Source of the DNA: Bradyrhizobium zhanjiangense
Lineage (GTDB): Bacteria; Pseudomonadota; Alphaproteobacteria; Rhizobiales; Xanthobacteraceae
NCBI RefSeq assembly: GCF_004114935.1
Contig: NZ_CP022221.1
Span: 2,997,001 to 3,061,000 of the forward strand
Direction: 5' to 3'
DNA length: 64,000 nucleotides
Made by a program: the position numbers and the translations under genes. The notes beneath the pieces are model-generated. The model was not told the origin of the DNA and did no database searches. It saw only the letters and a list, made by a program, of their open reading frames with translations. Shown here piece after piece: positions 15,931 through 35,119 of the stretch; the first letter of the stretch is position 1, and each line of letters begins with the position of its first letter.

Positions 15931-16623
15931 CTATAGCATCGGCTCGAACTGGCAGTGCACGAGCATCTCGGAGACCGACGCATTGTTCGGCATCATGAGC
16001 GCAGTTTCCACCAGGCGTGCGATGTCGCCCGGCTGGCTCATCTCGTGGCGAGGAATCTCGTCCTCGTTCAGCGTCATGTCGGTGGCGACGTAGCCGGGGC
16101 AGATCACCGTCGCCCGGATACCCGCCGCGCGCCCCTCGCGGCGAATGCCGTGGGTAAGCGCGACCACGGCGAACTTGGTCATGGCGTAGCCGACATTGCT
16201 GCCCACGCGCTTGCCCGCAAGCGATCCCAGGTTGATGACCCGCCCATGGCCGCAGACGGCCAGATGAGGCAGGGTCGCCCTGACGAGGCGCAGAGGACCC
16301 TTGACGTTCACGCGCCACATTTCGTCCAGCTCGTTCTCGCCTTCGTCGGAGACGCGGACCTTCGGATTGACGCCGGCCGCATTGACGATGGCGTCGACGC
16401 CGCCCCACCGCGCGACCGTTGCATTGACCCAGGAGATCGGGCTCTTGGCGTCTTCGGCGTCATAGCGGTGCGTCATGAGCCTCTCGCTCTCGGCGAGACG
16501 GCTCGGGTCCCGAAGCCCCGCCGACACGCGGAAGCCCGACGTCAGCAGCCGGTCGACGGCGGCGCGCCCGATGCCGCGCGAAGCCCCGGAGACCATGACG
16601 ATCCGCTTGCCAACTTCCAACAT
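15931..16623 (-). CDS. Short-chain dehydrogenase/reductase
   Basis: 230 residues, classical SDR. Cofactor site SGASRGIG near residue 14, NAAG in the middle, catalytic Ser in NLGSLAGKR, and the Tyr-x3-Lys pair in GYAMTK. The short classical length suggests NAD(P)-dependent alcohol/ketone interconversion in the cytosol. It is divergent from the next SDR gene at 16861 across a 237-bp gap containing an ATA-N9-TAT site, so it may belong to the same regulon. It is not a close copy of the paired SDRs at 16861 and 29610. Confidence 0.88.
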   Translation of the reverse strand: MLEVGKRIVMVSGASRGIGRAAVDRLLTSGFRVSAGLRDPSRLAESERLMTHRYDAEDAKSPISWVNATVARWGGVDAIVNAAGVNPKVRVSDEGENELDEMWRVNVKGPLRLVRATLPHLAVCGHGRVINLGSLAGKRVGSNVGYAMTKFAVVALTHGIRREGRAAGIRATVICPGYVATDMTLNEDEIPRHEMSQPGDIARLVETALMMPNNASVSEMLVHCQFEPML

Positions 16624-16782: not shown

Positions 16783-16797
16783 ATAAATCCGCTATAT
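16783..16797. promoter_or_regulatory. ATA-N9-TAT (Nac-type) operator candidate
   Basis: ATAAATCCGCTATAT, an exact fit to ATA-N9-TAT, the consensus of Nac-type LysR regulators. It lies 64 bp before the start codon of the first gene of the plus-strand operon. A second exact match precedes the minus-strand operon at 30497. Confidence 0.5.
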
Positions 16798-16860
16798 ACG
16801 CGCGCCGATCTCCGCACGTAACTTTTCGCCGCTCTAGCTGACGGTAAGCGAGCGTTGCGG

Positions 16861-17664
16861 ATGGGATTTTCGGACTACCGAACGGCGGTGGTGACGGGTG
16901 CCTCCTCAGGCATTGGGGCTGCGACGGTTCGCCGCCTCCGCGCCGAGGGGCTCGACGTTCATGCATTGGCGCGCGATATTCGCTGGTTGACCAGCCTGTC
17001 AGCTGAGACCGGATGTCGCGCCTGTGCGGTCGATGTGAACGATCTCGACGCCTTGAAGCGCCTTGCAAGCTCGGCCGAATTCGATGTTCTCGTCAACAAT
17101 GCCGGCCAGTCGCGGCGCGGCACCATCCTGGATACCGCGCCTGACGATGTCGACACGCTGGTGGACGTCAATCTACGGGCGGTCCTGCATCTGACGCGGC
17201 TGATCGCACCCAGTATGGCGCGCCGCCGCCGCGGCCACGTGGTCAATGTCTCGTCGATCGCTGGCCACTATGCCTTCGGCGAGAACGCCACGACGTTCAA
17301 CTCATCCGTGGCCTATCACGCGACGAAGGCCGGCGTTCATTCGCTGTCGCAGCAATTGCGCGTCGATCTCTACGGCACCTGCGTTCGCGTCACCGAAGTT
17401 TCGCCCGGGCGCGTGGCGACGAGCATCTTCCAGAACCAGAACGCCGCCGACAATCCGGATGCCCGCTTCGTCGGCGGCTTCGAGACGCTCCAGTCCGAGG
17501 ACATCGCGGATGCCATTGCGTTCGCGGTCGGATCGCCGGCGCGGATGAACGTCGCGACGATCGAGATTTTACCAACATTCCAGATCGTCGGCGAACTGCG
17601 ATTTGCGAGCCGATCCGAGGCCGCACGTTTGAAAGACATGAGAAGTGGAGCTGACAATGCCTGA
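16861..17664 (+). CDS. Short-chain dehydrogenase, copy 1 of a mirrored pair
   Basis: About 267 residues, starting MGFSDYRTAVVTGASSGIG. Cofactor loop TGASSGIG, NNAG, catalytic Ser in NVSSIAGHYAF, and Tyr-Lys in VAYHATK. Closely similar over its whole length to the minus-strand SDR at 29610-30368 (same start MGFSDYRTA, same ETGCR, VLVNNAGQSRRG and SPARMNVA blocks), so the two are recent paralogues. It leads the plus-strand operon; its stop overlaps the aminotransferase start by 8 nt. An oxidoreductase step on an alcohol or ketone intermediate is likely. The TTG two codons before the ATG is not needed. Confidence 0.88.
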   Translation: MGFSDYRTAVVTGASSGIGAATVRRLRAEGLDVHALARDIRWLTSLSAETGCRACAVDVNDLDALKRLASSAEFDVLVNNAGQSRRGTILDTAPDDVDTLVDVNLRAVLHLTRLIAPSMARRRRGHVVNVSSIAGHYAFGENATTFNSSVAYHATKAGVHSLSQQLRVDLYGTCVRVTEVSPGRVATSIFQNQNAADNPDARFVGGFETLQSEDIADAIAFAVGSPARMNVATIEILPTFQIVGELRFASRSEAARLKDMRSGADNA

Positions 17665-18859
17665 ACTCGCAAACCGCCTCAGGACCGTGAAGGTATCGGC
17701 CTCGGCGGCGATGACGGACAAGGCCCGCGAGCTCCGCGACGCGGGTGTCAAGATCGTAGGCCTGTCGTCCGGCGAGCCCGATTTTCCGACGCCGCCGCAC
17801 GCGATCGAGGCCGCACATCGGGCCGCCCTCGCAGGCGACACCAAGTATCCGGCGCAGCCGGGAACTGTCGCGCTGCGGACCGCGGTCCAGCGCAAGTTCA
17901 AGCGTGAGAACAATCTCGACTACGCCCTCGACGAGATCCTGATCGCCAATGGCGGCAAGCAGATCATCTTCAACGCGCTGTTTGCAACTTGCAATCCCGG
18001 CGACGAGGTCGTCATTCCGGCGCCGGGCTGGATTACCTATGCGGACATCGTTCTCCTGGCGGAGGCGACGCCCATCGCGGTGCCTTGCCCGGAGAACAAC
18101 CAGTTCAAGCTTCGCCCGGCGGACCTGGAGGCGGCGATCACGCCCCGGACGAAGTGGTTGATCCTGAATTTTCCCAACAATCCGACGGGCGCTGCCTGTA
18201 CGCGCGGGGAGATGCGCGCGATCGCCGACGTCATGCTGAAATATCCTGAGGTCTGGATTCTCACCGACGACATCTATGAGCATCTCACCTATGACGGTTT
18301 CGAGTTCTGCACCATCGCGGAGGTCGAGCCGAAGCTGAAGAATCGCGTCGTGACGGTGAACGGTGCGTCCAAGGCCTACGCCATGACCGGCTGGCGAGTC
18401 GGCTATTGCGGCGGTCCCAAGGACCTGATTGCGGCGATGAACAATGTCCATGGCCAGGCGACCGGCGGAATCTGCACGGTGAGCCAGGCAGCGGCCGTCG
18501 CCGTCCTGGACGGACCGCAGGACTACCTCAAGGCGCGTGCTGACATCTATCGCGACCGGCGCGATCTGGTGGTCAAGCTTCTCAATCAGATTCCGGGTAT
18601 CACCTGCCACAAGCCGCAGGGGGCCTTCTATGTGTTTCCGAACATCGCCGGCTGCATCGGCAAGACCACGAAGGGCGGTCGGCGGCTGGAAACCGACGCC
18701 GACTTCATCTCGGCGCTGCTGGAAGAGCAGCACGTCGCCGCGGTGCCGGGCGGCGCCTACGGCATGAGCCCATATTTCCGCATTTCTTACGCGACCGATA
18801 CTGAATCGCTGAAGGAAGGCTGCCGGCGCATCGCGAGCTTCTGCGAAGGGCTGCGCTGA
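17657..18859 (+). CDS. Class I/II PLP-dependent aminotransferase
   Basis: 400 residues, AspC-like fold type I. SGEPDFPTP near the N-terminus, the PLP-binding Asn in NFPNNPTGA, Asp/Tyr in TDDIYEHLTYDG, and the Schiff-base lysine in VNGASKAYAMTGWRVGY. Close in style to rhizobial aspartate/aromatic aminotransferases. The ATG at 17657 lies inside the end of the SDR gene, with GGAG upstream. In this operon it probably transaminates an imported amino compound or its oxo product. Confidence 0.9.
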   Translation: MPELANRLRTVKVSASAAMTDKARELRDAGVKIVGLSSGEPDFPTPPHAIEAAHRAALAGDTKYPAQPGTVALRTAVQRKFKRENNLDYALDEILIANGGKQIIFNALFATCNPGDEVVIPAPGWITYADIVLLAEATPIAVPCPENNQFKLRPADLEAAITPRTKWLILNFPNNPTGAACTRGEMRAIADVMLKYPEVWILTDDIYEHLTYDGFEFCTIAEVEPKLKNRVVTVNGASKAYAMTGWRVGYCGGPKDLIAAMNNVHGQATGGICTVSQAAAVAVLDGPQDYLKARADIYRDRRDLVVKLLNQIPGITCHKPQGAFYVFPNIAGCIGKTTKGGRRLETDADFISALLEEQHVAAVPGGAYGMSPYFRISYATDTESLKEGCRRIASFCEGLR

Positions 18860-19078
18860 CCCGGCATCGAGACGACAGGAGGACTGACCCGAAGGAGAAT
18901 GAAAGACGCGCCACGCGGCATTTGCCGATCAAGATCGGAGCAATATGCCGAACCAATTGTCATAATCGTTCCTGATGCCCCTAAACGAAGATGTTCTTGG
19001 TCCTGTAGGATGCCGACGCATAAGCTTTGTGCAGAAGAGGGGTATGCCTTGGTATCGCGCAGTCGAGGACGGCCAGCG

Positions 19079-20011
19079 ATGACCACCAGCGACGATGCGG
19101 TGGCAGTCTTAGGTGTTCAAGCTCCACCGGCAACCCGGCGGGCATCGCGGTGGCGTCTGGCCCTCCCGGTCGGACTTCTTGCCGTCCCGATGCTGGCATT
19201 CCTGACGTACTTCTTCTTCTATCCGGCGCTGGGGCTGCTGCTCTCGAGCATCCAGACCCAGGACAGCCGCGGCATCATCGGCCGTCCATTCACGCTTGCG
19301 CACTACGCCCGTCTGGTCAACGTCGAGCTCTACGCGCGCGTGCTCTGGACGACGCTGCGGATCAGCATCGTCACCTCGCTGCTTGCGACAGTGCTTGCCT
19401 ATCCGGTCGCCCTGGTGATGGTCAAAAGCCGTCCGATGGTCACGCGCATCATTACCCTGATCGTCATCGCACCTCTGATCGTGAGCGTGGTGGTTCGCGG
19501 CTACGGCTGGCAGCTCGTGCTCCAGAACGGTCCGAAGGGCATGCTGAACTGGATCCTGATGACGCTGCACGTCGTCGACGCGCCGATATCGGTCCTCTAC
19601 ACCGAGGCTGCCGTCGTCATCGGATCGCTGCACGTGTTCTTTCCGATGATGGTTCTGCCGCTGGCCTCGGCGCTCAGCAAGATCGATCCCAACCTCGAGG
19701 ACGCCGCCCGGATGCTGGGCGCGCCGTGGTGGAAGGTATTCCTTCGGGTGACGCTGCCGCTGAGCATGCCCGGCTTCGTCGCGGGCTTTACCCTGGTCTT
19801 TTCGCTCACCGCCGGCTCGTTCGTCATTCCGGCGATCCTGGGCGGCGCCTCGGCGGTCATGCTGGGCAATCTGATCGAGCAGCAAATCTTCGTCGTCTAC
19901 GACTGGCCATTTGGGGCTGCGATCGCCGTCGTTCTCGTCGGTCTCGTCCTCGCGGTGAACGGCGTCTCGATGTGGCTTCTGGAGGGCCGACGTCTCAGGA
20001 GGACCGAGTGA
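19079..20011 (+). CDS. ABC permease, polyamine/opine type (PotB-like)
   Basis: About 310 residues with six hydrophobic segments. The EAA loop near the C-terminus (EDAARMLGAPWWKVFLRVTL) docks the ATPase. The N-terminal 35 residues are cytoplasmic. ATG at 19079 is preceded by GAGGAC; longer in-frame starts up to 18899 lie in the intergenic region. It ends overlapping the next permease by one base. A 219-bp gap separates it from the aminotransferase and could hold a secondary promoter. Confidence 0.9.
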   Translation: MTTSDDAVAVLGVQAPPATRRASRWRLALPVGLLAVPMLAFLTYFFFYPALGLLLSSIQTQDSRGIIGRPFTLAHYARLVNVELYARVLWTTLRISIVTSLLATVLAYPVALVMVKSRPMVTRIITLIVIAPLIVSVVVRGYGWQLVLQNGPKGMLNWILMTLHVVDAPISVLYTEAAVVIGSLHVFFPMMVLPLASALSKIDPNLEDAARMLGAPWWKVFLRVTLPLSMPGFVAGFTLVFSLTAGSFVIPAILGGASAVMLGNLIEQQIFVVYDWPFGAAIAVVLVGLVLAVNGVSMWLLEGRRLRRTE

Positions 20012-20814
20012 TGGACGAGCGGTTTTCCGGCTTCGGCGCCTTCATCCTCTACACGATCACTGCCGGCATGATGCTGTTCATCCTGGCGCCGCTGCTTCTC
20101 GTCATGGCCGTGTCGGTCTCCGATTCCTATTTCGTGACGTTCCCGCCGCAGGGCTTCACGCTGAAATGGTACGCCAAGGTTCTCCAGGACCGCGACTTCC
20201 TCGAGGCGATGAGGCTGAGCATCCTGCTCGCGCTCGGCACGACGGCGGGCTCGCTCCTGTTCGGCGTGCCCGCGGCCTTTGCGCTCGTCCGCGGCAGGTT
20301 CTTCGGACTGGCAGCGATCAAGGGGTTCCTGCTGTCGCCGCTGATTTTCCCGGCGCTGGTCACGGGCCTGGCGCTGCTTCAGGTCCTGACCAGGCTCGGC
20401 TCGCAGGATGCGCGGCTCAATCTCCTGATCGGGCACGTGGTCGTGACGTCGCCCTATGTCATCCGCACTGTCGTCACCAGCCTCCAGCTCGTGGACGAGA
20501 ACCTGGAGGATGCCGCGCGCACCCTCGGCGCAAACCGGCTGACGACCTTCTGGCGCGTGACGCTGCCGCAGATCGCCTCCGGCGTCGCCGCCGGCGGGCT
20601 GTTTGCCTTCATGGTGTCCTTCGACAATTACCCGGTCACGATGTGGCTGGCGAACTCGGAATACTCGCCCGTGCCGCTCGTCCTGATGCGGCAACTGGTC
20701 AACGTCTTCGACCCTTCCGTGCCGGCGATGTCGACGATCATCATCCTGATGGCGATGGTCGGCGTGCTGCTGCTGGAGAAACTGGTCGGCCTTCGCCGCG
20801 CGCTGGCTGCCTGA
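20011..20814 (+). CDS. ABC permease, polyamine/opine type (PotC-like)
   Basis: 267 residues, MDERFSGFGAFILYTITAGM at the start, six membrane segments, and the coupling loop EDAARTLGANRLTTFWRVTL. AGGAGG lies 8 nt before the ATG. It pairs with the previous permease to form the heterodimeric channel of a spermidine/putrescine-type importer. Confidence 0.9.
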   Translation: MDERFSGFGAFILYTITAGMMLFILAPLLLVMAVSVSDSYFVTFPPQGFTLKWYAKVLQDRDFLEAMRLSILLALGTTAGSLLFGVPAAFALVRGRFFGLAAIKGFLLSPLIFPALVTGLALLQVLTRLGSQDARLNLLIGHVVVTSPYVIRTVVTSLQLVDENLEDAARTLGANRLTTFWRVTLPQIASGVAAGGLFAFMVSFDNYPVTMWLANSEYSPVPLVLMRQLVNVFDPSVPAMSTIIILMAMVGVLLLEKLVGLRRALAA

Positions 20815-20843
20815 TGTGCATTGGTTAGATGGAGATTGGACCC

Positions 20844-21908
20844 ATGAAGCTGACACGTAGGACTCTCATTAAGGCCGGTGCATCCGCGGTTGCTTTCCCG
20901 ACGATCATCAGCCGGTCGTGGGCGCAGGACGCCAAGCAACTGCATGTCGGCGTCTACAACTCCGCGCTGGGCAAGCTGATCCAGAAGGAGGTCATTCCCA
21001 AGTTCGAGGCCGAGTTCAAGTGCCGCGTCTTCACCATCGAAGGCGCGACGCTGTCTAACATCGCCGCCCTCCGCGCCACACGTGATACGCCGCGCTTCAG
21101 CATGATGATGATGGACGATGTCGGAATCCCCCAGGCCAAGCAGGAAGGGTTGATCGACAAGCTCGATACCGGGAAAATTCCCAACCTCGAGAAGGTCTAT
21201 AAGCGCTATCTGTTCGAGGAAGGCTACGGCGTCGGCTTCTCGATCTCGAGCGCGGCCATGTTCATCAATCCGCAAGTGACGAAGCCGCTCGAGAGCTATG
21301 AGCAGATCTTCGACGCGAAATATCGCAAGCAGATCTTGCTCAATACGCCCAAGAACACCCAGAGCGTGCTGATGCTCATCGTGGCGACGGCGCTCACGAC
21401 CGGCAAGCCGCTGCAGGAGGCGCAATATCTGGTCGACAGCGGCTGGGACAAGCTCGCTGCTCTCAAGCCCAACGTCCTGACGATCTACGACAGCGAGGCG
21501 CAGGTGCTCCAGGTGGCGCAGGGCCAGGCGACGATCGGCGGCATCGAATACTCGAAGGCGATCTATCCGCACACGGCCAAGGGCATGCCGATCGACATGA
21601 CCTTCCCCAAGGAAGGTGCGTTCACCGGCATCAACAGCATGACGCTGGTCAAGAATGCGCCCGAGCCGGAGCTCGCCTGTGCCCTGATCAACCGCATTCT
21701 GGAGCCCTCGGTCGCCAAGATGCTGTCCGAGCAGACGCTCAGCGCGCCGTCGGTGGGCGGCATCGACTTCAAGCCGGAGACGGCCAAGTTCCTGGCCTAT
21801 CCCGACACCAAGGCGACCGATCTCGGACTGTTCACGCCGGACTGGAAGTTCATCGTTCCGCGCCGCGGTCCGTGGCTGGAGCGCTATAATCAGGTGTTCA
21901 CGAGCTAG
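20844..21908 (+). CDS. Periplasmic substrate-binding protein (PotD-like), Tat signal
   Basis: About 354 residues. The start MKLTRRTLIKAGASAVAFP has a twin-arginine motif (RRTLIK) followed by a hydrophobic stretch and a cleavage site near SWAQD. The mature part begins KQLHVGVYNSALGK and follows the PotD/extracellular solute-binding family 1 pattern. Tat export suggests folding before transport. ATG at 20844 is chosen over 20829 because the ribosome site GGAG lies between them. Its ligand decides what the operon takes up; sequence alone does not say whether it is a polyamine, an opine or a lactam. Confidence 0.88.
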   Translation: MKLTRRTLIKAGASAVAFPTIISRSWAQDAKQLHVGVYNSALGKLIQKEVIPKFEAEFKCRVFTIEGATLSNIAALRATRDTPRFSMMMMDDVGIPQAKQEGLIDKLDTGKIPNLEKVYKRYLFEEGYGVGFSISSAAMFINPQVTKPLESYEQIFDAKYRKQILLNTPKNTQSVLMLIVATALTTGKPLQEAQYLVDSGWDKLAALKPNVLTIYDSEAQVLQVAQGQATIGGIEYSKAIYPHTAKGMPIDMTFPKEGAFTGINSMTLVKNAPEPELACALINRILEPSVAKMLSEQTLSAPSVGGIDFKPETAKFLAYPDTKATDLGLFTPDWKFIVPRRGPWLERYNQVFTS

Positions 21909-21919
21909 GACAGGCTGCC

Positions 21920-23014
21920 ATGAGGTCTTCCGAAGTCAGGCTTGACCGCCTCAGCAAGGAATATAACCGCACCGTCGCGGTCGACGACGTCTCGCTCACG
22001 ATCGAGCCGGGCCACATGGTGGCGCTGCTCGGTCCGAGCGGATGCGGCAAGACGACCTGCCTGCGCATGATTGCAGGGTTGATCCGCCCGACATCCGGCG
22101 ACGTCTTCGTGAACGACAAGAGGATGACCGACGTTCCCGTGCATCGCCGCAATGTCGGAATGCTGTTCCAGAACTACGCGCTGTTTCCTCACCTGACCGT
22201 CGACGAGAACATCGCCTTCGGCCTGGAGATGCGCGGGATATCCAAGGCCGATGCCGCAAGGAAGATGGCCGAGGCGCTCAGCCTCGTGCAGCTCTCCAGC
22301 TTCGGCAAGCGCTATCCGGCGCAGCTCTCCGGCGGCCAGCAGCAGCGCGTCGCATTGGGGCGGGCCCTTGTGATCGAGCCGGCCATGCTGCTCCTCGACG
22401 AGCCGCTCGGGGCGCTCGACAAGGGGCTTCGCGAGAGCATGCAGGTCGAGCTGCGTGCCCTTCAGCGCAGGCTTGGCCTCACCACCGTCATGGTGACCCA
22501 CGACCAGGACGAAGCCCTGACGATGGCCGACAAGATCGTGGTCATGCGCGATGGCAAGCTCGAGCAGGTCGGCTCGGCGACGGAAATTTACCAGCGTCCC
22601 GCCTCGAAATTCGTCGCGCAGTTTATCGGCGCATCGAATCTGTTTCAGGGGCCCATCGAGCAGCGAAACGGCAGCGGAGCCGTCATTCGTGTCTCGCCCG
22701 AACTCAGCCTTCAGGTCGATCAGATCCCGTCGTCGGCCAGCGACGTGATGGTTTCGATCAGGCCCGAAGCGATCATCGTCGAGCGAGCCGGCCAGAGCCC
22801 GGCGGCGCAACGCGCCAACAGCGTGACGGCGCGTGTCGATCAGGCCATCTATCGCGGCTTCGTCAGTCACTACTATCTCAAGACGCCGAGTGGCGGCCAG
22901 ATCATCGTGTTCGAGCAGAACCAGTCGCAGCAAGCCGGACTCCGATACGCGGTGGGCGAGGAGGTCGTGGCGCGGTGGGAGTCACCCAGCAATCACGTCA
23001 TCGCGCGTCACTGA
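21920..23014 (+). CDS. ABC transporter ATPase (PotA-like)
   Basis: 364 residues. Walker A GPSGCGKT, Q-loop in LFQNYALFPH, signature LSGGQQQR, Walker B LLLDEPLGALD, switch His in VTHDQDEAL, then a C-terminal TOBE-like beta domain from about residue 270. That layout is the PotA/UgpC type. It completes the importer with the preceding three genes, 11 bp after the binding protein. Confidence 0.92.
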   Translation: MRSSEVRLDRLSKEYNRTVAVDDVSLTIEPGHMVALLGPSGCGKTTCLRMIAGLIRPTSGDVFVNDKRMTDVPVHRRNVGMLFQNYALFPHLTVDENIAFGLEMRGISKADAARKMAEALSLVQLSSFGKRYPAQLSGGQQQRVALGRALVIEPAMLLLDEPLGALDKGLRESMQVELRALQRRLGLTTVMVTHDQDEALTMADKIVVMRDGKLEQVGSATEIYQRPASKFVAQFIGASNLFQGPIEQRNGSGAVIRVSPELSLQVDQIPSSASDVMVSIRPEAIIVERAGQSPAAQRANSVTARVDQAIYRGFVSHYYLKTPSGGQIIVFEQNQSQQAGLRYAVGEEVVARWESPSNHVIARH

Positions 23015-23112
23015 AATCGGAGGCGAGCGCGAGGTCCTGCGGGCAATCGACATCCCTTATACCCGCAGACGAACATCGTCTTGGATCGGCCTGCGACGCT
23101 TGGCTAGATCTA

Positions 23113-23216
23113 AAGCATGATCCGGAAAAGTGCCAAGCGGTTTTCCGAAAGATCATGCATAAACAACAACCTAGAGCGCGATGACGTTTCATCTAAATCT
23201 CATCGCGCTTTAGGAG
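23113..23216. repeat. Rhizobial palindromic intergenic repeat
   Basis: Two nested palindromes: GCATGATCCGGAAAA faces TTTTCCGAAAGATCATGC, and AGCGCGATGA faces TCATCGCGCTTT. This composite is familiar from intergenic regions of Rhizobiales genomes. It lies between the ATPase and pxpB1 and could form an RNA hairpin that attenuates or stabilises the operon transcript. Confidence 0.7.
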
Positions 23217-23252
23217 TGGCAGCGCCACGGGCGTTCGACCAGCGAGGCCCTT

Positions 23253-23948
23253 TTGTCGATTAATCAGCCAAACGCTCCCTTTGTCGGCACGATCGAGAAA
23301 AGCCCGAAGATCAGCCTGATCGGCACGCTTGCGATGCTGGTCGAGGCGCCGGGTGACTTCGACCTGCTGCAGCAGGGACGAATCTGGGCCCTTGCAGATG
23401 CCGTCTCGACCTGGCCCAATGTCCAGGAGGCCGTCATTGGCGTCACCAATGTGATGCTCGTCTTCGAGCAGCCGCCGGCGGATATCGGTATGCTCGGCGC
23501 TGCGATCGTCGAGCTGTGGCATCGTTTGCCGGGCCGCAAGGCCGACGGCAAGCTCATCGAGATTCCCGTGGTCTATGGCGGCGAACTCGGCTTCGATTTG
23601 CCAGCGGTTGCAAAGCGCGCCGGACTATCCGAGCGCGATGTCATCAGGATTCACAGCGAAGGCGAATACACCGTCTGTGCGGTCGCGAGCTCGCCGGGGT
23701 TCGGCTATCTCCACGGCCTCGATCCGCGCATTCACATGCCGCGTAAATCGGTACCGTCGCTCAACATGCGGGCGGGCTCGGTGACCATCGGTGGGATGCA
23801 GACAGGCGTCGCGGTGCTGACAAGCCCGAACGGATGGAACGCGATCGGCTGGGCCTCTGTCGCCATGTTCGATCCGAGCTCCGAACAGCCCTCGCTCATG
23901 CTTCCGGGCGACCGTGTCAAATTCAGGATCGATCGGATCGAGCTGTGA
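23253..23948 (+). CDS. pxpB: 5-oxoprolinase subunit B-like (PxpB/KipI, CT_C_D), copy 1
   Basis: 231 residues from a TTG start, the only reasonable start before ISLIGTLAMLVEAPG. Carries the CT_C_D (carboxyltransferase subdomain C and D) domain: IPVVYGGELGFDL, SPGFGYLHGLDPRI, GSVTIGGMQTGV. In PxpABC it helps ATP-dependent opening of 5-oxoproline to glutamate. Its stop overlaps the next gene by 4 nt (GTGA). Confidence 0.88.
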   Translation: MSINQPNAPFVGTIEKSPKISLIGTLAMLVEAPGDFDLLQQGRIWALADAVSTWPNVQEAVIGVTNVMLVFEQPPADIGMLGAAIVELWHRLPGRKADGKLIEIPVVYGGELGFDLPAVAKRAGLSERDVIRIHSEGEYTVCAVASSPGFGYLHGLDPRIHMPRKSVPSLNMRAGSVTIGGMQTGVAVLTSPNGWNAIGWASVAMFDPSSEQPSLMLPGDRVKFRIDRIEL

Positions 23949-24922
23949 TCGAGATCCTGACCAGCCCCGCCTTCAACACCATCCAGGACCTGGGCCGTCA
24001 TGGTGCGCGCCGTTTCGGCGTGAGCACGTCGGGTGCCATGGATCCCGTCGCACTCGCCGCCGGCAATGCGCTGCTCGGCAATGACGACAATGCGGCCGGC
24101 ATCGAGATCCAGACCTTTCCGTTCCGCCTGCGCTTTTCGGCCGACACCGCATTCGCGCTCACCGGCGCCGATCACGACGCGACGCTGGCCGGATCGGCCG
24201 TTCGGCCGTGGTGGTGCACGCGTGCGAAGGCGGGCGATGTTCTCGCGATCACCGCGCCGCGGCGTGGCGCGCGAGTCTACATGACGTTCGGCGGCGGCAT
24301 CGACGTTCCGCGCGTGCTGGGCTCGCGCAGCACGCATCTGCGCGGCGGCTTCGGCGGGCTCGAGGGCCGCACCTTGCAGGCGGGCGACGTCGTGCCGATC
24401 GGGAATTCGCCGAGCAGCAGCGACGGGCGCTTCGATTTCGGCGTGGCGCCGCCGGATGTCGCGATCGCGGGCATAGCTTCAGCGGATGACCGCGTGCTGC
24501 GGATACGCGTGATGCGGGCCGGCGAGTACGACCTGTTCTCCGAGGCGATGCAGGCGAGTTTCTGGACGACGCGATGGAAGATCAGCGCCCGGAGCGATCG
24601 GGGCGGCTATCGTCTCATCGGCGGCAAGCTGACATTGGACGCGCCGGTCGAGATGCGCTCGCACGGTGTGGTGGCCGGCGTCGTGCAGGTGCCGCCGGCC
24701 GGCGAGCCGATCATCCAGATGAGCGATGCCAATACGGCGGGTGGCTATCCGAAGATGGCGGCCGTGATCCAGGCCGATCTCTGGCGCCTCGGCCAGGCGA
24801 CGCCGGGATCGGTCATTGCCTTCAGTGAGGTGAGCTACCAGGACGCGGTCGCGGCCATGGCTCCCGTCAACGACTATCTCGTGAAGTTGCGTGCGACCGC
24901 GGATCTCTATCGAGCGCTTTGA
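23945..24922 (+). CDS. pxpC: 5-oxoprolinase subunit C-like (PxpC/KipA, CT_A_B), copy 1
   Basis: 325 residues from a GTG start. CT_A_B domain: FNTIQDLGRHGARRFGVSTS, GAMDPVALAAGN, ALTGADHDA, RSHGVVAGVVQVPPAGEPII. GTG is supported by the GTGA overlap with pxpB1. Partner of PxpB in a heteromeric complex. The shared overlap arrangement with the second copy at 26086-27752 shows both pairs descend from one ancestral unit. Confidence 0.88.
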   Translation: MIEILTSPAFNTIQDLGRHGARRFGVSTSGAMDPVALAAGNALLGNDDNAAGIEIQTFPFRLRFSADTAFALTGADHDATLAGSAVRPWWCTRAKAGDVLAITAPRRGARVYMTFGGGIDVPRVLGSRSTHLRGGFGGLEGRTLQAGDVVPIGNSPSSSDGRFDFGVAPPDVAIAGIASADDRVLRIRVMRAGEYDLFSEAMQASFWTTRWKISARSDRGGYRLIGGKLTLDAPVEMRSHGVVAGVVQVPPAGEPIIQMSDANTAGGYPKMAAVIQADLWRLGQATPGSVIAFSEVSYQDAVAAMAPVNDYLVKLRATADLYRAL

Positions 24923-24957
24923 GTGGACGTCAACAATAACAAGAGCAGGGTACGAAG

Positions 24958-25725
24958 ATGAAAATCGGCATCAATTCGGACATGGGCGAAGGCTTCGGCA
25001 ATTATCGCATCTGCGACGACGAGGCGCTGATGAGCATCATCTCGTCGGCCAACGTGGCGTGCGGTTTTCACGCCGGCGATCCCATCATCATGGATCGCAT
25101 GGTTCGCCTGGCGAAGCAGAAGGGGGTCGAGGTCGGTGCTCATCCGGGCCTGCCTGACCTTCTCGGATTTGGACGCCGCGTGATCCAGATGGATGCGGCC
25201 GAGATCGAGAAGCACATGGTCTATCAGATCGGCGCCTTGCAGGCGATCGCGACCAATGCAGGCCATCGCGTGACCCATGTCAGCTTCCACGCCGCGATGG
25301 GTAACATGGTCAATGCCGACCCTGATATGGCCGATGTCGTTGCCCGTGCGATTGCGGCCATCAACCGCGACTTCATCGTGTTCTCGCAGCCTGACGCTGA
25401 GATCGTGCGCGCCGCGCGCAAGGTCGGCCTGCGCATCCTCACGCTGTTCCTGGCTGATCGCGCCTATGACGAGCACGGCCACCTGGTGTCTCGCAAGCTT
25501 CCCAACTCGGTCATCACCTCGACCGAGGCGGTGGCCGAGCGGGTCAAGCGCTTCCTCGACAGCGGCACTGTGCAGACGATCGAGGGCAAGTCGATCAAGG
25601 TCGAAGCGCGCTCGATCCTGATCCACAGCGACACGCCCGGATCGGTCAACCTTGCCGCTACTGTGCGCCGCGTGATCGAGCAGGGTGGCGGCGAAGTCAC
25701 GCCCGCAACCGTTCTCCTCAATTGA
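24958..25725 (+). CDS. pxpA: 5-oxoprolinase subunit A (PxpA/LamB/YcsF family)
   Basis: 255 residues, complete: INSDMGEGFGNYRICDDEAL, ANVACGFHAGDP, VGAHPGLPDLLGFGRR, SFHAAMGN, FADR-like LADRAYDEHGHL. The conserved Asp/His cluster of the family is present. With pxpB1 and pxpC1 it gives a full PxpABC set. Its last 8 bases overlap the last 8 of the minus-strand carrier-like gene, so the two operons meet tail to tail. Confidence 0.9.
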   Translation: MKIGINSDMGEGFGNYRICDDEALMSIISSANVACGFHAGDPIIMDRMVRLAKQKGVEVGAHPGLPDLLGFGRRVIQMDAAEIEKHMVYQIGALQAIATNAGHRVTHVSFHAAMGNMVNADPDMADVVARAIAAINRDFIVFSQPDAEIVRAARKVGLRILTLFLADRAYDEHGHLVSRKLPNSVITSTEAVAERVKRFLDSGTVQTIEGKSIKVEARSILIHSDTPGSVNLAATVRRVIEQGGGEVTPATVLLN

Positions 25726-26125
25726 GCGGACGGATGCGCGCAATCGGTGTGCCGTAGCCGACCGTTGCGCCGGGCTCCGCGATCACGGCATCGACGGTGC
25801 CGGTGGCCGGCGCCACGATGGGCGCATACAAGAGCCCGATCTTGACGAGGCCGACGGTCGCGCCGGCCTCGATGCGCTGGCCAGGCGCGACGAACGGCTT
25901 GTCCCGCCAGGGATGAGCCGCGAGGAAACATCCTGCGACGTCGGCTTTGGCGATGACGGAATGGTCATCGGCGGGGGTGGCAGGCGTCGGCGACGCGGCC
26001 ACTCGCGGGCCCGTATCGACGACGAGCCTCAGGGATTGGCCGGGCTCTTCGATCTCGATCGTGTCGACGCCGGACCTTGCGAGGATCAGCGCCAGGCGCG
26101 CGATATCGGTGAGCTGTATCGGCAT
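25718..26125 (-). CDS. Biotinyl/lipoyl carrier-like protein lacking the modified Lys
   Basis: 135 residues. N-terminus LTDIARLALILARSGVDTIE resembles AccB. The C-terminal half is a biotinyl-type flattened barrel: FVAPGQRIEAGATVGLV, then APIVAPATGTVDAV and VGYGTPIARI. Where true carriers have EAMK this one reads VKIG (residues 94-97), so the biotin-accepting Lys is replaced by Gly in my alignment by eye. The start at 26125 has GGAG upstream and lies inside the end of pxpC2 (40-nt overlap). It may be a structural subunit or a scaffold. A true carrier is encoded earlier in the same operon. Confidence 0.75.
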   Translation of the reverse strand: MPIQLTDIARLALILARSGVDTIEIEEPGQSLRLVVDTGPRVAASPTPATPADDHSVIAKADVAGCFLAAHPWRDKPFVAPGQRIEAGATVGLVKIGLLYAPIVAPATGTVDAVIAEPGATVGYGTPIARIRPLN

Positions 26126-27093
26126 GTTCTGGTCTCCTCGACAAGGCGTGCGTTGGTCCTGAGCCGGTCGAGATAGGCCGACATCTCGGTTTCGGCCGCC
26201 AGCGCATCGGAATAAGCGGTTTGCTCGAATCGCAACTTGCTGCCGAGCCGCGCCTGCCCGACGCGCCACAGATCGGCGCGGATCACGGTTGCGATCTTCG
26301 GGTAGCCGCCGGACGTCTGCGCGTCGCGCATCTGGATGATCGGCTGTCCGTTCGGCGGAATCTGGATGACGCCGGGAACGATGCCGTGCGAGCGCTTCTC
26401 GATCGGCACCTCCGGCTTCACGGCAGGACCCTGCAGGCGATAGCCGTAACGGTTGCTCTGCGGCGTGATCTTCCAGCTGCTCGACCAGAACAGCGCCTGC
26501 GTGGCGGCGTCGAAGCCGTCATACTCGCCGGCAATCACGACCCTGACGATGGTCTCATCCGCGGCGGCGTTCGGCCGCGCCAGCGTGATCTCGGCCGGCT
26601 CGACCCCGAGCTCCCCGATGACCGCAGTTGGCGCGGCGCAGGGCAGGACGTCGCCCACATGGAGCGGCCGTCCGTGCCAGCCGCCGAACTCGCCGCGAAA
26701 CTGCGTGCTGCGCGAGCCCAGCACCATGGGCACGTCGATACCACCGCCAACGGTTAGATAGAGTCGTGCGCCGCGGGGCATTGCCTTGATGGTCAAGACT
26801 TCGCCCGCACGAGCGTGCGACCGCCACCATGGCGGAATCACGCGTCCTGCGATCTCGGCCTCGACATCGGCGCCCGTGAGCGCAAAGGCCATGTTGCGGT
26901 CGAAACGAAGCTTGAATGGCAGCATCGGGATTTCGATGCCGGCGGCGTTCTCGTCGTTGCCGAGAAGGATGTTGCCGGCACGCAGGGCGACATCGTCCAT
27001 CGCACCCGACGTGCCGACTCCGAAGCGATATTGATCGAAGCGGCCGAGATCCTGGACGCTGGCCGGCCCTGTGACTGACAGGATCTCGATCAC
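26086..27093 (-). CDS. PxpC/KipA-like carboxyltransferase half (CT_A_B), copy 2
   Basis: 335 residues from GTG at 27093, overlapping pxpB2 by 4 nt. Same domain as copy 1 (SVQDLGRFDQYRFGVGTSGA, ALTGADVEA, GGGIDVPMVLGSRST, RSHGIVPGVIQIPPNGQPII), but with a divergent tail. Here it sits with biotin carboxylase and carrier genes, so it more likely forms the A/B half of a carboxyltransferase, as in urea carboxylase, than a second 5-oxoprolinase. No second pxpA accompanies it. Confidence 0.85.
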   Translation of the reverse strand: MIEILSVTGPASVQDLGRFDQYRFGVGTSGAMDDVALRAGNILLGNDENAAGIEIPMLPFKLRFDRNMAFALTGADVEAEIAGRVIPPWWRSHARAGEVLTIKAMPRGARLYLTVGGGIDVPMVLGSRSTQFRGEFGGWHGRPLHVGDVLPCAAPTAVIGELGVEPAEITLARPNAAADETIVRVVIAGEYDGFDAATQALFWSSSWKITPQSNRYGYRLQGPAVKPEVPIEKRSHGIVPGVIQIPPNGQPIIQMRDAQTSGGYPKIATVIRADLWRVGQARLGSKLRFEQTAYSDALAAETEMSAYLDRLRTNARLVEETRTCRYSSPISRAWR

Positions 27094-27752
27094 CGGATCA
27101 CCCGTTCGACCGCGAAGCGGATCGTGTCGCCCGGTGCGAGTGCAGCAGGCGTCGGCCAGGTCGGATCGAAGAAGGTCCAGCTCGTGTGCCCGATGGCGTG
27201 CCAGCCGCTCGGCCCTGATGATGCGGAGACACCGGTCTGCGATCCGCCGATCGACACCGAGCCGCCCGCGGAGCGTTGCAGCGGCGTCTGCCGCCGCGGC
27301 ATGGTGATGCGCGGATCCATGCCGCCGAGATAGCAATAGCCGGGATGGCTGCCGAGCGCGAATACCGTGTAGAGCGGGGCGGCATGGATCGAGACCACGT
27401 CGTCGACTGACAGGCCGCAATGATCGGCGACGGACTGGAGCGAGGATCCGATCTCGCCGCCATAGGTGACAGGCAGCCTGATCTCGCGGCCGCCGATTGC
27501 GAGGCCTTCGGCCGCGTCCCAGCCGTCATTGAGAGCGGCGATCAGGCCGTCGAGCTCGCGCGGCGGGGTCTCGAAAGTCAGCATCAAATTGGTGATGCCG
27601 GGAATGGCCTCGCGGATATCAGGCCATTTCGACGCGGTGGCCGCCAGCGCCCAGATGCGCCGCTGATGTGGCAGGTCGAACGCGCCGGGCGCCTCGAACA
27701 GGAGAGCCGATGTCCCGAGCAGGCTGATCCGCGGCCGGTCCGACGTGGTCAT
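27090..27752 (-). CDS. PxpB/KipI-like carboxyltransferase half (CT_C_D), copy 2
   Basis: 220 residues. CT_C_D domain: [60 protein letters not shown]. Overlaps the stop of the biotin carboxylase by 4 nt (ATGA). Clearly paralogous to the gene at 23253 but well diverged. With copy 2 of PxpC it makes up a two-subunit carboxyltransferase. Confidence 0.85.
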
Positions 27753-29104
27753 GGCGCGGCTACCTTCGTATTCAGCCAGTGCTCGAGATGGTGGATGTCG
27801 TAGCCGCCACGACAGAACGCGGGATCGGCGAGGATCGCCTGATGCAACGGTACATTGGTTCGGATGCCTTCGGCGCGCAGCTCGGACAAGGCGACGCGCG
27901 CACGCGCCATGGCCTCCTCGCGGGTGCCGCCATGGGCGATCAGCTTGCCGATCAGCGAGTCATAGTGGCGGGGAACGGTGGCGCCGGCGGTGATATGTGA
28001 ATCGACGCGGATGCCGATGCCGCCGGGAACGTCCCAGCGCGTCACCGTGCCGGGCGAGGGCGCGAAAGTGGCGGGGTCCTCGGCATTGATGCGGAATTCA
28101 ATGGCATGGCCGACACGTGCGATGTCGCCTTGCGCGATGCCCAGGGGCTCGCCTTGCGCGATCTGGATCTGCGCCTTGACGATGTCGATGCCCGTCGTCA
28201 TCTCGGTGACGGGATGCTCCACCTGGACGCGCGTGTTCATCTCGATGAAGAAGAACTGCCCGTCCTCGTAGAGGAATTCGAACGTGCCGGCGCCGCGATA
28301 GCCGATCCGCCGGCAGGCCTCGACGCAGCTTGCGCCCACCCGCTCGATCAGCGCGCGATCGATGCCGGGCGCGGGAGCTTCCTCGACCACCTTCTGGTTC
28401 CTGCGTTGAAGCGAGCAGTCGCGGTCGCCGAGCCAGAGATGGTTATCGTGCTGATCGCACAGCACCTGGATCTCGATATGGCGCGGTTTTTCGAGGAATT
28501 TCTCGATATAAACCGCAGCGTTCTTGAAGGCCTTGCTGGCTTCCGCACGGGTCAGCGCCAGCGCCTCGTCCAGTGCGGCCTCGCTGCGCACGATCCGCAT
28601 GCCGCGCCCGCCGCCGCCACCGGCGGCTTTGATGATCACGGGGTACCCGATGTCGCGCGCGATCGCGCGCACTTCGGCCGGATCATCCGGAAGGGCGCTG
28701 TCCGGCCCGGGCACGCAAGGTACGCCCGCCAGCCGCATCGCGCGCTTGGCCGCGACCTTGTCGCCCATGGTCCGGATACAATCGGCCGGCGGGCCGATGA
28801 AGGTGAGGCCGGCGCGCGCGACCCGATCGGCGAACTCCGCACTCTCCGAGAGGAAGCCGTAACCCGGGTGAATGGCCTGCGCGCCGCTGACCTCTGCTGC
28901 GAGCAGGATCGCCGCCACGTTGAGATAGGTGCTGCTTGCCGGCGCCGACCCGATGCAGAGCGCCTCGTCGGCGAGTGCGACATAGCGCGCGTCGCGGTCC
29001 GCTTCCGAGTGAATGACGACCGTCTTGAGACCCATCGTCCGACAGGCGCGCTGGATGCGAAGCGCGATCTCGCCGCGATTGGCGATCAGGACCTTGTCGA
29101 ACAT
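27749..29104 (-). CDS. Biotin carboxylase (AccC-like)
   Basis: 451 residues, complete. [16 protein letters not shown] at the start, HPGYGFLSE, the ATP-grasp glycine loop [42 protein letters not shown] with the catalytic Glu/Arg region, and EFRINAED. It carboxylates biotin on the carrier protein with ATP and bicarbonate. Located between the carrier and pxpB2 with 1-4 nt overlaps, so a dedicated subunit rather than the housekeeping acetyl-CoA carboxylase. Confidence 0.92.
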
Positions 29105-29613
29105 CAGGATGAACCCGCAGGACCGATCCGGAACAGGGCTTGACCCGCCGCGATCTCCTCACCGTTCTCCGCGAGGATCGCAAGCACGACACCGGGCACC
29201 TCGGCGGCGATGTCGATGAAGGTCTTCATCGCCTCGATGATGCAGATCTTCTGCCCGGCCTCAATCCGCGCGCCGACCTCGACCAGAGGTGGCTCGTCCG
29301 GTGCCGCAGCCCGGTAGAAGATGCCATGCATCGGCGCGGGCACGACGGTGTCGGTGGCAGCCTCGGGAGCCGGGTTTTGCCGGTGCTCGGGAGCAGGGGC
29401 CTCGACCTCGCCCCGGTCTGCAGGCTGCGCCATGGCCGCAGGCGCGCCTGCCGACGCGCGCTTGAGGATGCGGATGCGGGTGCCGTCCTGCGTGAGGTCC
29501 AGCTCCGCGATGGAGGAGCGCGTAACGAGGTCGACGAGTTGTTCGATTTTGGCGAGGTCCACAGTCACGTTCCGCGTTGACGGCCTGTTGGGTTCGGAGC
29601 GTTCATGCGTCAC
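29104..29613 (-). CDS. Biotin carboxyl carrier protein (AccB-like)
   Basis: 169 residues from GTG, overlapping the SDR stop by 4 nt. N-terminal AccB-type helix-strand region ([20 protein letters not shown]), Ala/Pro linker (55-88), then the biotinyl domain [20 protein letters not shown] with the motif IIEAMK; the biotin-accepting lysine is K130. It shuttles carboxyl groups from the biotin carboxylase to the carboxyltransferase. Confidence 0.9.
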
Positions 29614-30368
29614 TCCGCAGGCGGCCGGCTCTTCTGTGCAAAATTGAGGCCGCCGACAACCTGCTGGGTCGGTAGGACTTCCATGAAGGCGACGTTCATG
29701 CGCGCCGGCGATCCAACCGCGAACGCGATCGAATTGGCGATGTCCTCGGGCTGCAGCGAATCATAGTCGTCGAAGAAGAGGCGCTTGGCTTCGGCGAGAT
29801 CACCCAGCAGCCGGCCGAAAACCTCGGTCTCGACCCGGGCCGGCGATATCTCGGTGACGCGAACCCTGGTCCCGTAGAGATCGACGCGCAGTTGCTGCGA
29901 CAGCGAGTGAATGCCAGCCTTCGTGGCGTGATACACGGTGTTGCCGCCACCAAACGCGTAGTGGCCGGCGATCGAGGAGATGTTGACGACATGGCCGCGG
30001 TCGCGGTGCGCCATGCCCGGCACGACCAGCCGCGTCAGATGCAGGACCGCCCGCAGATTGACATCGATGAGAGCGTCGACGTCCTCGGGTGTGGTGTCCA
30101 GGATATTGCCGCGCCGGGACTGGCCGGCGTTGTTGACCAGGACGTCGAACTCGGCCGACTTTGCCAATGCGGCAAGCGCGTCAAGGTCGCTGATGTCGAC
30201 GGCGCAGGGGCGGCATCCGGTCTCGGCGGACAGGGCGCTCAGGCGAGTGGCGTCGCGAGCCACGGCGTAGACTTGGAGCCCTTCCGCACTCAGGCGGCGA
30301 ACCGTCGCAGCTCCTATTCCGGAGGATGCGCCCGTCACCAGGGCCGTCCGATAGTCCGAAAATCCCAT
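29610..30368 (-). CDS. Short-chain dehydrogenase, copy 2 of a mirrored pair
   Basis: 252 residues, starting MGFSDYRTALVTGASSGIG. TGASSGIG, NNAG, Ser in NISSIAGHYAF and Tyr-Lys in TVYHATK are all present. Nearly parallel throughout with the SDR at 16861, missing only a short insert before the active-site Tyr. First gene of the minus-strand operon. ATG at 30368 is preferred because it matches the start of the paralogue; the frame is open 17 codons further. Confidence 0.88.
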   Translation of the reverse strand: MGFSDYRTALVTGASSGIGAATVRRLSAEGLQVYAVARDATRLSALSAETGCRPCAVDISDLDALAALAKSAEFDVLVNNAGQSRRGNILDTTPEDVDALIDVNLRAVLHLTRLVVPGMAHRDRGHVVNISSIAGHYAFGGGNTVYHATKAGIHSLSQQLRVDLYGTRVRVTEISPARVETEVFGRLLGDLAEAKRLFFDDYDSLQPEDIANSIAFAVGSPARMNVAFMEVLPTQQVVGGLNFAQKSRPPAE

Positions 30369-30496
30369 CCGTGAGGGCTCCTCTGCTACCGTCCAACCCG
30401 CTGGTGGCGTCGGCTGCAACGCGAGCGGCGGACGAGTTCAGCACTAGCTATAGGCCCCTCAGGTTCCCGGTGGTAAGAACAATTCCTTCTGATCCC

Positions 30497-30511
30497 ATAG
30501 CTTCAGCCTAT
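30497..30511. promoter_or_regulatory. ATA-N9-TAT (Nac-type) operator candidate
   Basis: ATAGCTTCAGCCTAT, an exact ATA-N9-TAT that is also the palindrome ATAG-N7-CTAT and a T-N11-A LysR box. It lies 44 bp before the LysR gene start and 129 bp before the divergent SDR operon, the usual place for an autoregulated LysR switch. Confidence 0.6.
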
Positions 30512-30554: not shown

Positions 30555-31541
30555 TTGGATACGAAACGCTTGGAGGCCTTCATCAAGGTCGTGGATCTCG
30601 GCAGCATGACGAGCGCGGCGAAGGTGCTGAATGTCGCGCAGCCGGCCCTGAGCCAGCACATTGCGAGCCTGGAGGCGGATTTCAAGTGCAAGCTGCTCGA
30701 CCGCAGCGCCCGCGGGGTCAAGCCCACCGAAGCCGGACGAATCCTCTACCGCTATGCCAAGTCGATCCAGCGGCAGATCGAAGAGGCCAGGCGCACCATC
30801 CTGGACAACAAGCCGGAACTGACCGGCAACGTCACGATCGGCCTGGCCCCACTCAGCTCGGCGGCATTGCTGGCGACCCCGCTGCTGATGCAGGTACGCG
30901 AACGTTATCCCGGCATCGTGCCGCACATCTACGACAGCTCCGGGGTCATGCTCAGCGAGATGATGCTGAAGGGGAGCATGGATATGGCTGTCCTCTATGG
31001 CGAGCGCCCGGTGACCGGTCTCGATTACAAGCCGCTGATGCGCGAGTACTTTTATCTTGTCGTGCCCCGCAGTATGTATCCGGAGCAGATGCCTGCGGAG
31101 GACGTTTCGGCGGCGGAGGTCGCGCAATTCGACCTGCTGCTGCCATATCGGGAATCCTTCCTGCGGCAGACGGTCGAGCGGGTCTGCGCCGAGGTCGGGC
31201 TCCGCCCGCGCATCGTCGCCGAGATCCATTCCCAATCGACCCTCTCTTCGGCGATTGCAGCCGGAGTGGGGGCGGCCGTGCTGCCCATGTCGATCGCAAA
31301 GGAGTTGCCGAACCTCGACGAACTCTGCATCCGGCGGATCAACGCGCCGTCGGCCTCGCAGCAGATGTCGCTATGCATCTCCGATAACGCCCCGTTGTCC
31401 GACGCCGCATTCTCCGTCTACAAGATCTTGCTCGAGATCATCGTCAAGACCTGGGGGCCGTTCGATGCCAACCCCGGCTCGGCCGCCATCGCCACGGGTG
31501 GCCCAACGTCGCCGCTGGACGGGCCGAAGGACGAGCCATAA
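30555..31541 (+). CDS. LysR-type regulator, Nac-like
   Basis: 328 residues from a TTG with GGAG upstream. N-terminal winged helix-turn-helix MDTKRLEAFIKVVDLGSMTS, AAKVLNVAQPALSQHIASLE, RGVKPTEAGRILY; this pattern resembles Nac of enterobacteria. The C-terminal effector domain spans about 90-300. It is divergent from the SDR-carboxylase operon and upstream of the aldolase gene, so a local regulator. Effector unknown; nitrogen limitation or a pathway intermediate are reasonable guesses. Confidence 0.88.
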   Translation: MDTKRLEAFIKVVDLGSMTSAAKVLNVAQPALSQHIASLEADFKCKLLDRSARGVKPTEAGRILYRYAKSIQRQIEEARRTILDNKPELTGNVTIGLAPLSSAALLATPLLMQVRERYPGIVPHIYDSSGVMLSEMMLKGSMDMAVLYGERPVTGLDYKPLMREYFYLVVPRSMYPEQMPAEDVSAAEVAQFDLLLPYRESFLRQTVERVCAEVGLRPRIVAEIHSQSTLSSAIAAGVGAAVLPMSIAKELPNLDELCIRRINAPSASQQMSLCISDNAPLSDAAFSVYKILLEIIVKTWGPFDANPGSAAIATGGPTSPLDGPKDEP

Positions 31542-32938: not shown

Positions 32939-32944
32939 CCTGAT

Positions 32945-33300
32945 CGGGGATGCGACCCCAGTGTACGCCCGGGTCAGAGCGACGGATCACGCGATGGGAG
33001 CACGAGGATCTGCTCGACGCCGTGCAGCAGCGGCTCGATGCGACCCGCTCGCTATGCGCCGTCGTCGCGAGACTGTCGAGCACCCGTTCGGCACGATGAA
33101 GGCACGCATGGGAGCAACGCACGTCCTGACCAAAACCCTCCCAAGGTAGCCGCCGAGATGGCCCTCTCGGTTCTGGCCTACAATCTGACCCGAGCAATGA
33201 ATATCCTCGGGATCAGGCCGCTGATCGCCGCGATCGCGGCCTGAGACCGGACCAGTTTTGGCTTCAAGACTGATGGTCCTGTAAGGCCGTTTTTACACGG
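32945..33300 (+). mobile_element. IS1182-type transposase C-terminal relic
   Basis: Three frames together give the end of an IS1182-family transposase: RITRWEHEDLLDAVQQRLDA, then MRRRRETVEHPFGTMKARMG with the ETVEHPFG block, then KVAAEMALSVLAYNLTRAMN, ending at 33244. At least two frameshifts (near 33050 and 33145). Sequence up to about 33300 probably includes the terminal repeat. Only this end of the element is left. Confidence 0.75.
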
Positions 33301-35110: not shown

Positions 35111-35119
35111 GCTCCACAC

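Follow-up and report, generated by a model that had tools for sequence, protein, structure and literature searches.

PxpABC-type genes linked to a biotin carboxylase and a carrier paralogue without the biotinyl lysine in Bradyrhizobium zhanjiangense

We analyzed a stretch of 64,000 nucleotides from Bradyrhizobium zhanjiangense (contig NZ_CP022221.1, positions 2,997,001 to 3,061,000; hereafter the window), which contains a locus of two facing operons with genes for PxpA, PxpB and PxpC, a biotin carboxylase (BC), AccC, and a biotin carboxyl carrier protein (BCCP), AccB. In our assessment the chances are about even that the minus-strand operon encodes a biotin-dependent version of PxpABC, in which PxpB2-PxpC2 would carry out a carboxybiotin-driven activation of an amide that PxpA would then open. 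The last gene of this operon, carX, encodes a BCCP paralogue without the biotinyl lysine, which is a new observation.

The plus operon spans 16855-25725 and the minus operon 30368-25718; they end in pxpA and carX, respectively, which share 8 nt (25718-25725). Open reading frames and a Pfam scan of 18 window proteins, the families of all of which were supported, confirmed the original prediction of two mirrored convergent operons with this overlap and with every gene that it had named; gene starts were picked by comparison with relatives. Adjacent genes of the minus operon share overlaps of 1-40 nt, which fits one transcript, as expected. The range first proposed, 16783..30511, covers both operons correctly and is too short for the locus, since genes for a LysR regulator and an RraA-like aldolase just outside it are both present in 19 of 19 loci of the two-PxpC type among our named loci (the best 80 of 218 from a scan with a PxpC alignment), and were therefore assigned to it. 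The genes are as follows.

16855-17664, plus: SDR1, short-chain dehydrogenase (SDR; PF00106), 71% identical to SDR2
17645-18859, plus: class I/II aminotransferase; best curated model aspartate transaminase PRK06107, 516.6 bits, under the cut-off of 617
19049-20011 and 20011-20814, plus: two permeases of an ATP-binding cassette (ABC) importer (PF00528)
20844-21908, plus: solute-binding protein (PF13416)
21920-23014, plus: importer ATPase with TOBE_2 (PF00005, PF08402)
23253-23948, plus: PxpB1 (CT_C_D, Pfam), Arg164 at the urea carboxylase Lys position
23945-24922, plus: PxpC1 (CT_A_B; Pfam, tree)
24958-25725, plus: PxpA (LamB_YcsF; Pfam, curated subfamily model), the sole PxpA of the locus
26125-25718, minus: CarX, BCCP paralogue, Leu98 at the biotinyl Lys column, His71-Pro72 motif
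27093-26086, minus: PxpC2 (CT_A_B; Pfam, tree, model fold)
27752-27090, minus: PxpB2 (CT_C_D), with Arg153 in place of Lys1605 of urea carboxylase
29104-27749, minus: AccC, BC, with its active-site motifs and a score of 638 bits against the solved BC 4mv1
29613-29104, minus: AccB, BCCP, EAMK with Lys130
30368-29610, minus: SDR2, short-chain dehydrogenase (Pfam)
30555-31541, plus: LysR regulator, divergent from the minus operon (Pfam, linkage)
31641-32309, plus: RraA-like aldolase; 4-carboxy-4-hydroxy-2-oxoadipate aldolase model PRK09262, 222.5 bits versus a cut-off of 179
15931-16623, minus: SDR3, divergent from SDR1, membership unsure; homologue in 17 of the 19 named loci with two PxpC

By its family make-up, we take the importer to be of the spermidine/putrescine type.

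In the proposed mechanism, AccC would carboxylate biotin on AccB using ATP and bicarbonate, and PxpB2-PxpC2, with its carboxyltransferase (CT) fold, would use the carboxyl group to activate an amino-acid-like cyclic compound at its amide. The activated amide would then be hydrolyzed by PxpA of the plus operon, so that ATP would be spent through carboxybiotin. CarX may belong to this machine as a subunit without biotin and probably sits at a BCCP docking place on AccC or PxpBC, where it could act as a structural or regulatory decoy. PxpB1C1 would represent a second paralogue pair using the same PxpA, and the freed amino acid would be handled by the aminotransferase, the SDRs and the RraA-like aldolase. 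Protein families suggest the formation of the complex, the carboxyl transfer, the role of CarX, the order of steps and the class of substrate. The likeliest substrate would be an amino-acid-like lactam. A 4-substituted glutamate released from a lactam would fit the aminotransferase and the aldolase, whose family is that of 4-carboxy-4-hydroxy-2-oxoadipate aldolases; lactams of 4-hydroxy- or 4-methylene-glutamate came to mind because of this pair of genes and of peanut isolates among the plasmid records described below, and as the literature on this idea gave nothing useful and those records are a biased set, it stays a guess.

Sequence comparison supplies the grounds for this proposal, namely the parts themselves, intact active-site motifs in AccC and AccB, a CarX without the lysine, a conserved linkage and a joint absence in a few loci. 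BC, BCCP and the CT-fold PxpBC are encoded as separate chains in the minus operon, as predicted. AccC passes the curated model TIGR00514 (658.9 versus a cut-off of 626.5) and possesses, by motif position, the active-site residues H209, E276, E288, N290, R292, Q294, V295, E296 and R338, whose roles we assume to be those of the E. coli residues. AccB keeps the biotinyl lysine (EAMK, Lys130) and scores 115.7 with TIGR00531, the cut-off being 115.2. In a tree of 41 chosen AccC rows, the AccC proteins of CarX-type loci form one clade (24 of the 41; 99/97), beside but outside two housekeeping AccC rows, and every architecture that combines PxpC and AccC has its own BC clade. A recent origin of AccC as a copy of the housekeeping AccC of this genome was rejected on the basis of the separate clade.

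The last gene of the minus operon had been described as carrier-like, and its role as a biotin carrier did not hold: CarX has no biotinylatable lysine, with Leu98 at that column, and scores 36.7 with TIGR00531, below the cut-off of 115.2. The biotinyl lysine occurs in 0 of 92 CarX rows and the HP motif in 90 of 92. The rows of a CarX alignment cover residues 52-135 only, so that the N-terminal part is barely tested. By the ratio of nonsynonymous to synonymous substitution rates (dN/dS), CarX is under purifying selection; a decaying gene was rejected on this ratio and on the conserved motif. Since window-type rows without and with the lysine, respectively, were used to build the CarX and AccB models, calls made with these are mildly circular. 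Three rows scored as AccB lack the lysine: a short, unrelated-looking match in L068, a remnant in L089 and a diverged carrier in L174. In databases, CarX is named acetyl-coenzyme A (CoA) carboxylase biotin carboxyl carrier protein subunit or biotin/lipoyl-containing protein. Adjacent AccB-like and CarX-like genes were also seen in locus L041 (6013-7002; G036:C2, ~753 kb), with no AccC or PxpBC match within 13 kb; by eye, the surrounding genes resemble those for a lyase, an oxidoreductase and an amidase.

Loci of the window type, which combine two PxpBC pairs with a single PxpA, account for 19 of the 80 named loci and come from Bradyrhizobium and Chelatococcus; they coincide with the 19 loci that have a PxpC at least 70% identical to the query. 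All 19 contain AccB, AccC, CarX, one PxpA, SDR, LysR and RraA genes, and 18 an aminotransferase. Among the other 61 named loci, 43 are at least 18 kb long; in these we found PxpA and SDR in 43, aminotransferase and LysR in 42, AccC in 41, AccB and CarX in 40, and RraA in 29 (SDR, LysR, aminotransferase and ATPase genes were assigned by BLAST matches to large families inside the stretch, and their counts are no evidence of orthology). PxpB was counted in 64 of the 80 loci, which looks too low, as the overlap filter discards PxpB wherever it favors a long frame that overlaps it. In 75 of the 80 loci AccC and CarX are found together, and in three related loci both are absent. This co-occurrence, the single AccC clade and PDB entry 9yx5 (see below) support the idea of a split carboxylase.

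The core AccB-AccC-PxpB-PxpC-CarX-PxpA, together with SDR, aminotransferase, LysR, RraA-like aldolase and importer genes, recurs in α-, β- and γ-proteobacteria, including Paraburkholderia, Caballeronia, Variovorax, Pseudomonas, Marinomonas, Skermanella and Roseibium. The transporters differ, being of the spermidine type in the window, of the polar amino acid type in several loci, of the branched-chain type in Mesorhizobium and of the tripartite ATP-independent periplasmic (TRAP) type in Polaromonas; such variation beside one gene set suggests one core chemistry acting on amino-acid-like substrates. Plasmids of Rhizobium leguminosarum and Mesorhizobium carry the same gene set in other gene orders, with a CarX in which HP is present and EAMK absent. 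CarX-like matches were found on 143 plasmid records, mostly of rhizobia, in a biased record set, and the four examined all carry the cassette. The CarX profile gave a tally of 309 in 398 genomes of the phylum, which probably includes housekeeping AccB and is not a count of CarX. On a Bradyrhizobium plasmid from a peanut nodule (L205), genes of the hydantoinase/oxoprolinase family (1-2498) are located some 5 kb away from the cassette, on its RraA side, which hints at lactam metabolism in the vicinity. Within the genus, at least one CT_A_B match is present in 144 of 146 genomes but the facing PxpC pair, by eye, in at least 15 of 146; thus the window locus is accessory. The genome of the window itself has three CT_A_B and two LamB_YcsF matches, of which two PxpC and one PxpA are in the window; a separate PxpABC lies at 5.12 Mb, with no AccC match in the surrounding 14 kb.

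For the whole phylum we sampled 120 genomes, in 37 of which PF02626 matched at 51 places, 14 resembling a fused urea carboxylase by open-frame length and 37 not. Stretches were taken for 33 of the 37 non-fused places (without the three of the window genome and one at a contig edge) and for 6 of the 14 fused ones. AccC adjoins PxpC in 12 of the 33 non-fused loci and is absent in 21, and the linked loci have three architectures: the CarX type, PxpA-AccB-AccC-PxpB-PxpC, and a fused PxpBC next to an AccC chain of greater length. Matches to the CarX model occurred in two of the 33 non-fused loci; a third, L174, has the diverged carrier without the lysine.

In the PxpC tree (74 rows left of 151 after thinning at 80% identity), PxpC1 and PxpC2 lie in separate branches of one 39-row group (100/96), which adjoins a three-row group with E. 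coli PxpC (joint 42-row split, 99/98). The CT of urea carboxylase is placed elsewhere, with the PxpA-AccB-AccC-PxpB-PxpC type (99/93). The PxpC and AccC trees have some long branches, and the midpoint root serves for drawing only. On the PxpC tree, loci with AccC within 6 kb cluster strongly but have more than one origin (7 changes versus a shuffled mean of 22.6 for this label). As the BC of each architecture falls into a clade of its own, PxpBC-like proteins pair with several BC lineages, which would be hard to explain without function. Both PxpB2 (167.6) and PxpB1 (180.6) pass the PxpB equivalog cut-off of 145.55, and PxpA passes its subfamily cut-off (334.6 versus 226), whereas PxpC2 (294.2) and PxpC1 (286.2) miss the cut-off of 500 of the PxpC equivalog NF045499.

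In a study of K. lactis urea amidolyase (PMC5770610), K1605 is given as the most likely general base of the CT, and its Ala mutant as severely impaired. By counting along the alignment, K1605 is the Lys of TKYNP. Among 32 PxpB/CT_C_D rows, Lys fills this column in the six urea carboxylases as well as in L164, L165 and L167, and Arg in the remaining 23 rows, including PxpB2 (Arg153), PxpB1 (Arg164) and E. coli PxpB. Carboxyl-transfer chemistry in PxpB2, if present, would therefore have a base unlike that of urea carboxylase. The likeness to urea carboxylase in the original prediction is not borne out by this residue and by the grouping of PxpC2 with E. coli PxpC. PxpB2 and PxpC2 side with the 5-oxoprolinase subunits, which counts against that prediction, and the genomic link to AccBC is strong, which speaks for it. 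The L164, L165 and L167 loci are PxpA-AccB-AccC-PxpB-PxpC clusters, although in L164 no AccB was called. Their PxpB retains the Lys of urea carboxylase and their PxpC is the sister of the CT of that enzyme, which makes them better candidates for a truly split urea-carboxylase-like enzyme.

We found no characterized system with this gene set in the open-access literature searched; the earlier statement to that effect stands within this scope, though the gene set occurs widely and has been annotated automatically. The PxpABC 5-oxoprolinases (E. coli pxpABC; C. glutamicum pxpTABC, PMC13274462) share the PxpA, PxpB and PxpC subunits, the Arg at the urea carboxylase Lys position and the grouping of PxpC; the window locus differs in its linked AccB, AccC, CarX and accessory catabolic genes and in a PxpC under the equivalog cut-off. 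PDB entry 9yx5, titled 'Structure of the long chain acyl-CoA carboxylase complex from Mycobacterium smegmatis with MSMEG_0435-MSMEG_0436 bound', contains AccA3 chains and, judging by the entry sequence and title, a PxpBC homologue, MSMEG_0435-0436, associated with a BC/BCCP subunit. A Foldseek search with PxpC2 reached it only via chain W, at rank 45, and this row was used for the title alone; no paper on the entry was found in the literature searched. The mycobacterial PxpB also has a PRR motif, and the Arg is thus no bar to binding a BC complex. The BC subunit there comes from an acyl-CoA carboxylase, whereas the window has a dedicated AccC/AccB pair and CarX. Urea carboxylases (K. lactis and bacterial fused enzymes) share the BC, BCCP and CT_A_B/CT_C_D modules but not the separate chains, the Arg or the CT and BC clades. 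In six clusters (L172, L175, L176, L177, L183, L188), PxpA, a fused PxpBC and a BC are likewise grouped, but their PxpC and BC belong to other clades, their AccC is 570-833 aa long, and no CarX was found in 13-14 kb.

Three other explanations were weighed. The locus might encode an ordinary second 5-oxoprolinase or related lactamase, with PxpABC performing the full ATP-dependent reaction and AccBC-CarX being a passenger or serving, for instance, an extra acyl-CoA carboxylation. This is a serious if somewhat doubtful candidate, favored by the curated cut-offs that both PxpB proteins and PxpA pass, by the position of PxpC2 in the tree and by the three otherwise like, related loci without AccBC and CarX. 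However, the genome already has its separate PxpABC at 5.12 Mb with no AccC match in 14 kb around, both PxpC proteins of the locus fall far under the equivalog cut-off (294 and 286 versus 500), Pfam identified no acyl-CoA carboxyltransferase among the 18 locus proteins scanned, and the AccC clade and tight AccC/CarX co-occurrence also argue against it. We consider it unlikely that the locus holds two enzymes, PxpA-PxpB1C1 opening the ring of an imported lactam and AccBC-PxpB2C2-CarX carboxylating a later or different intermediate. The paralogues have indeed diverged (PxpB1/PxpB2 48%, PxpC1/PxpC2 55% identical; PxpC1 and PxpC2 in separate branches), the pattern of two PxpC and one PxpA is kept in 19 of 19 named loci with PxpC at least 70% identical, and in the window only PxpB1C1 shares an operon with PxpA, but the commoner single-operon form manages with one PxpBC, AccBC, CarX and PxpA. 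Least likely, and quite improbable, is the originally predicted split N-carboxylase of urea, guanidine or a like compound, whose N-carboxylated product would be cleaved by PxpA or another hydrolase. Although it would use the same three functional modules as urea carboxylase, and PxpC2 matches the K. lactis enzyme 3va7 (1.4e-32) with a model that folds alike, Lys1605 is replaced in PxpB2 and kept in the different L164/L165/L167 type, which groups with urea carboxylase; AccC resembles BC of acetyl-CoA carboxylase type (638 bits to the solved BC versus 337 to K. lactis urea carboxylase), and an aminotransferase, SDRs and an aldolase would fit urea or guanidine poorly.

Several points weigh against a biotin-dependent PxpABC as well. 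PxpABC without AccBC is reportedly a working 5-oxoprolinase (Niehaus 2017), and in the phylum sample 21 of 33 PxpC loci other than urea carboxylases have no AccC nearby. AccBC is not indispensable in the three loci without it, unless housekeeping AccBC stands in; these loci are relatives (PxpC 81-96% identical), and their joint loss was thus probably one event. The replaced base makes carboxyl transfer of the urea type appear less than assured. Locus L202 (G435, 14 kb) keeps CarX with PxpBCA, aminotransferase and SDR and has no AccB or AccC match, and therefore CarX may serve PxpBC rather than AccBC; a 3.4-kb stretch of G280 (L139) begins with a similar arrangement. L137 was grouped with L202 and L139 among the observations of CarX without AccBC. 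Only two PxpC columns are common to all AccBC-linked types and rarer (11 of 20) in lone ones, a weak separation. Finally, the partner in 9yx5 is an acyl-CoA carboxylase complex, and a carboxyl transfer to PxpBC is not evident from its title and sequence. A broader view, which we offer tentatively, is that PxpABC-type enzymes are at root carboxybiotin-driven amide hydrolases, with PxpBC receiving an activated carboxyl group from a BC that is dedicated, as here, or borrowed, as from the M. smegmatis acyl-CoA carboxylase; lone PxpABC would be derived or would use a housekeeping carboxylase, and in the CarX form CarX, having lost its biotin site, would be obligate, gating or docking the real carrier.

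Beside the RraA-like gene, the open reading frame 32349-33149 looks, by eye, NHL-type-like at its start and transposase-like at its end, and the gene seems interrupted. A neighbor in Bradyrhizobium sp. 62B (L205, 6790-7776) is annotated as peptidyl-alpha-hydroxyglycine alpha-amidating lyase family. A large frame on the minus strand of the window (33320-35119, 599 aa) is, by eye, adenylate/guanylate cyclase-like with repeats.

Compared with the original prediction, the locus is real and conserved; it is less interesting for being neither unique nor urea carboxylase-like and more interesting for its pseudo-carrier. As a whole, the set looks like a novel type of ATP-driven enzyme that degrades amino-acid-like compounds. 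A conserved pseudo-carrier would be an unusual subunit among biotin enzymes, and the CarX-like matches on mostly rhizobial plasmids suggest that the substrate may be of importance to life in the rhizosphere. The way in which PxpBC uses ATP seems to be unsettled, with 'it is assumed' being the wording in a 2026 paper on C. glutamicum (PMC13274462). This question can be tested directly in a lineage where PxpBC is accompanied by a biotin carboxylase of its own.

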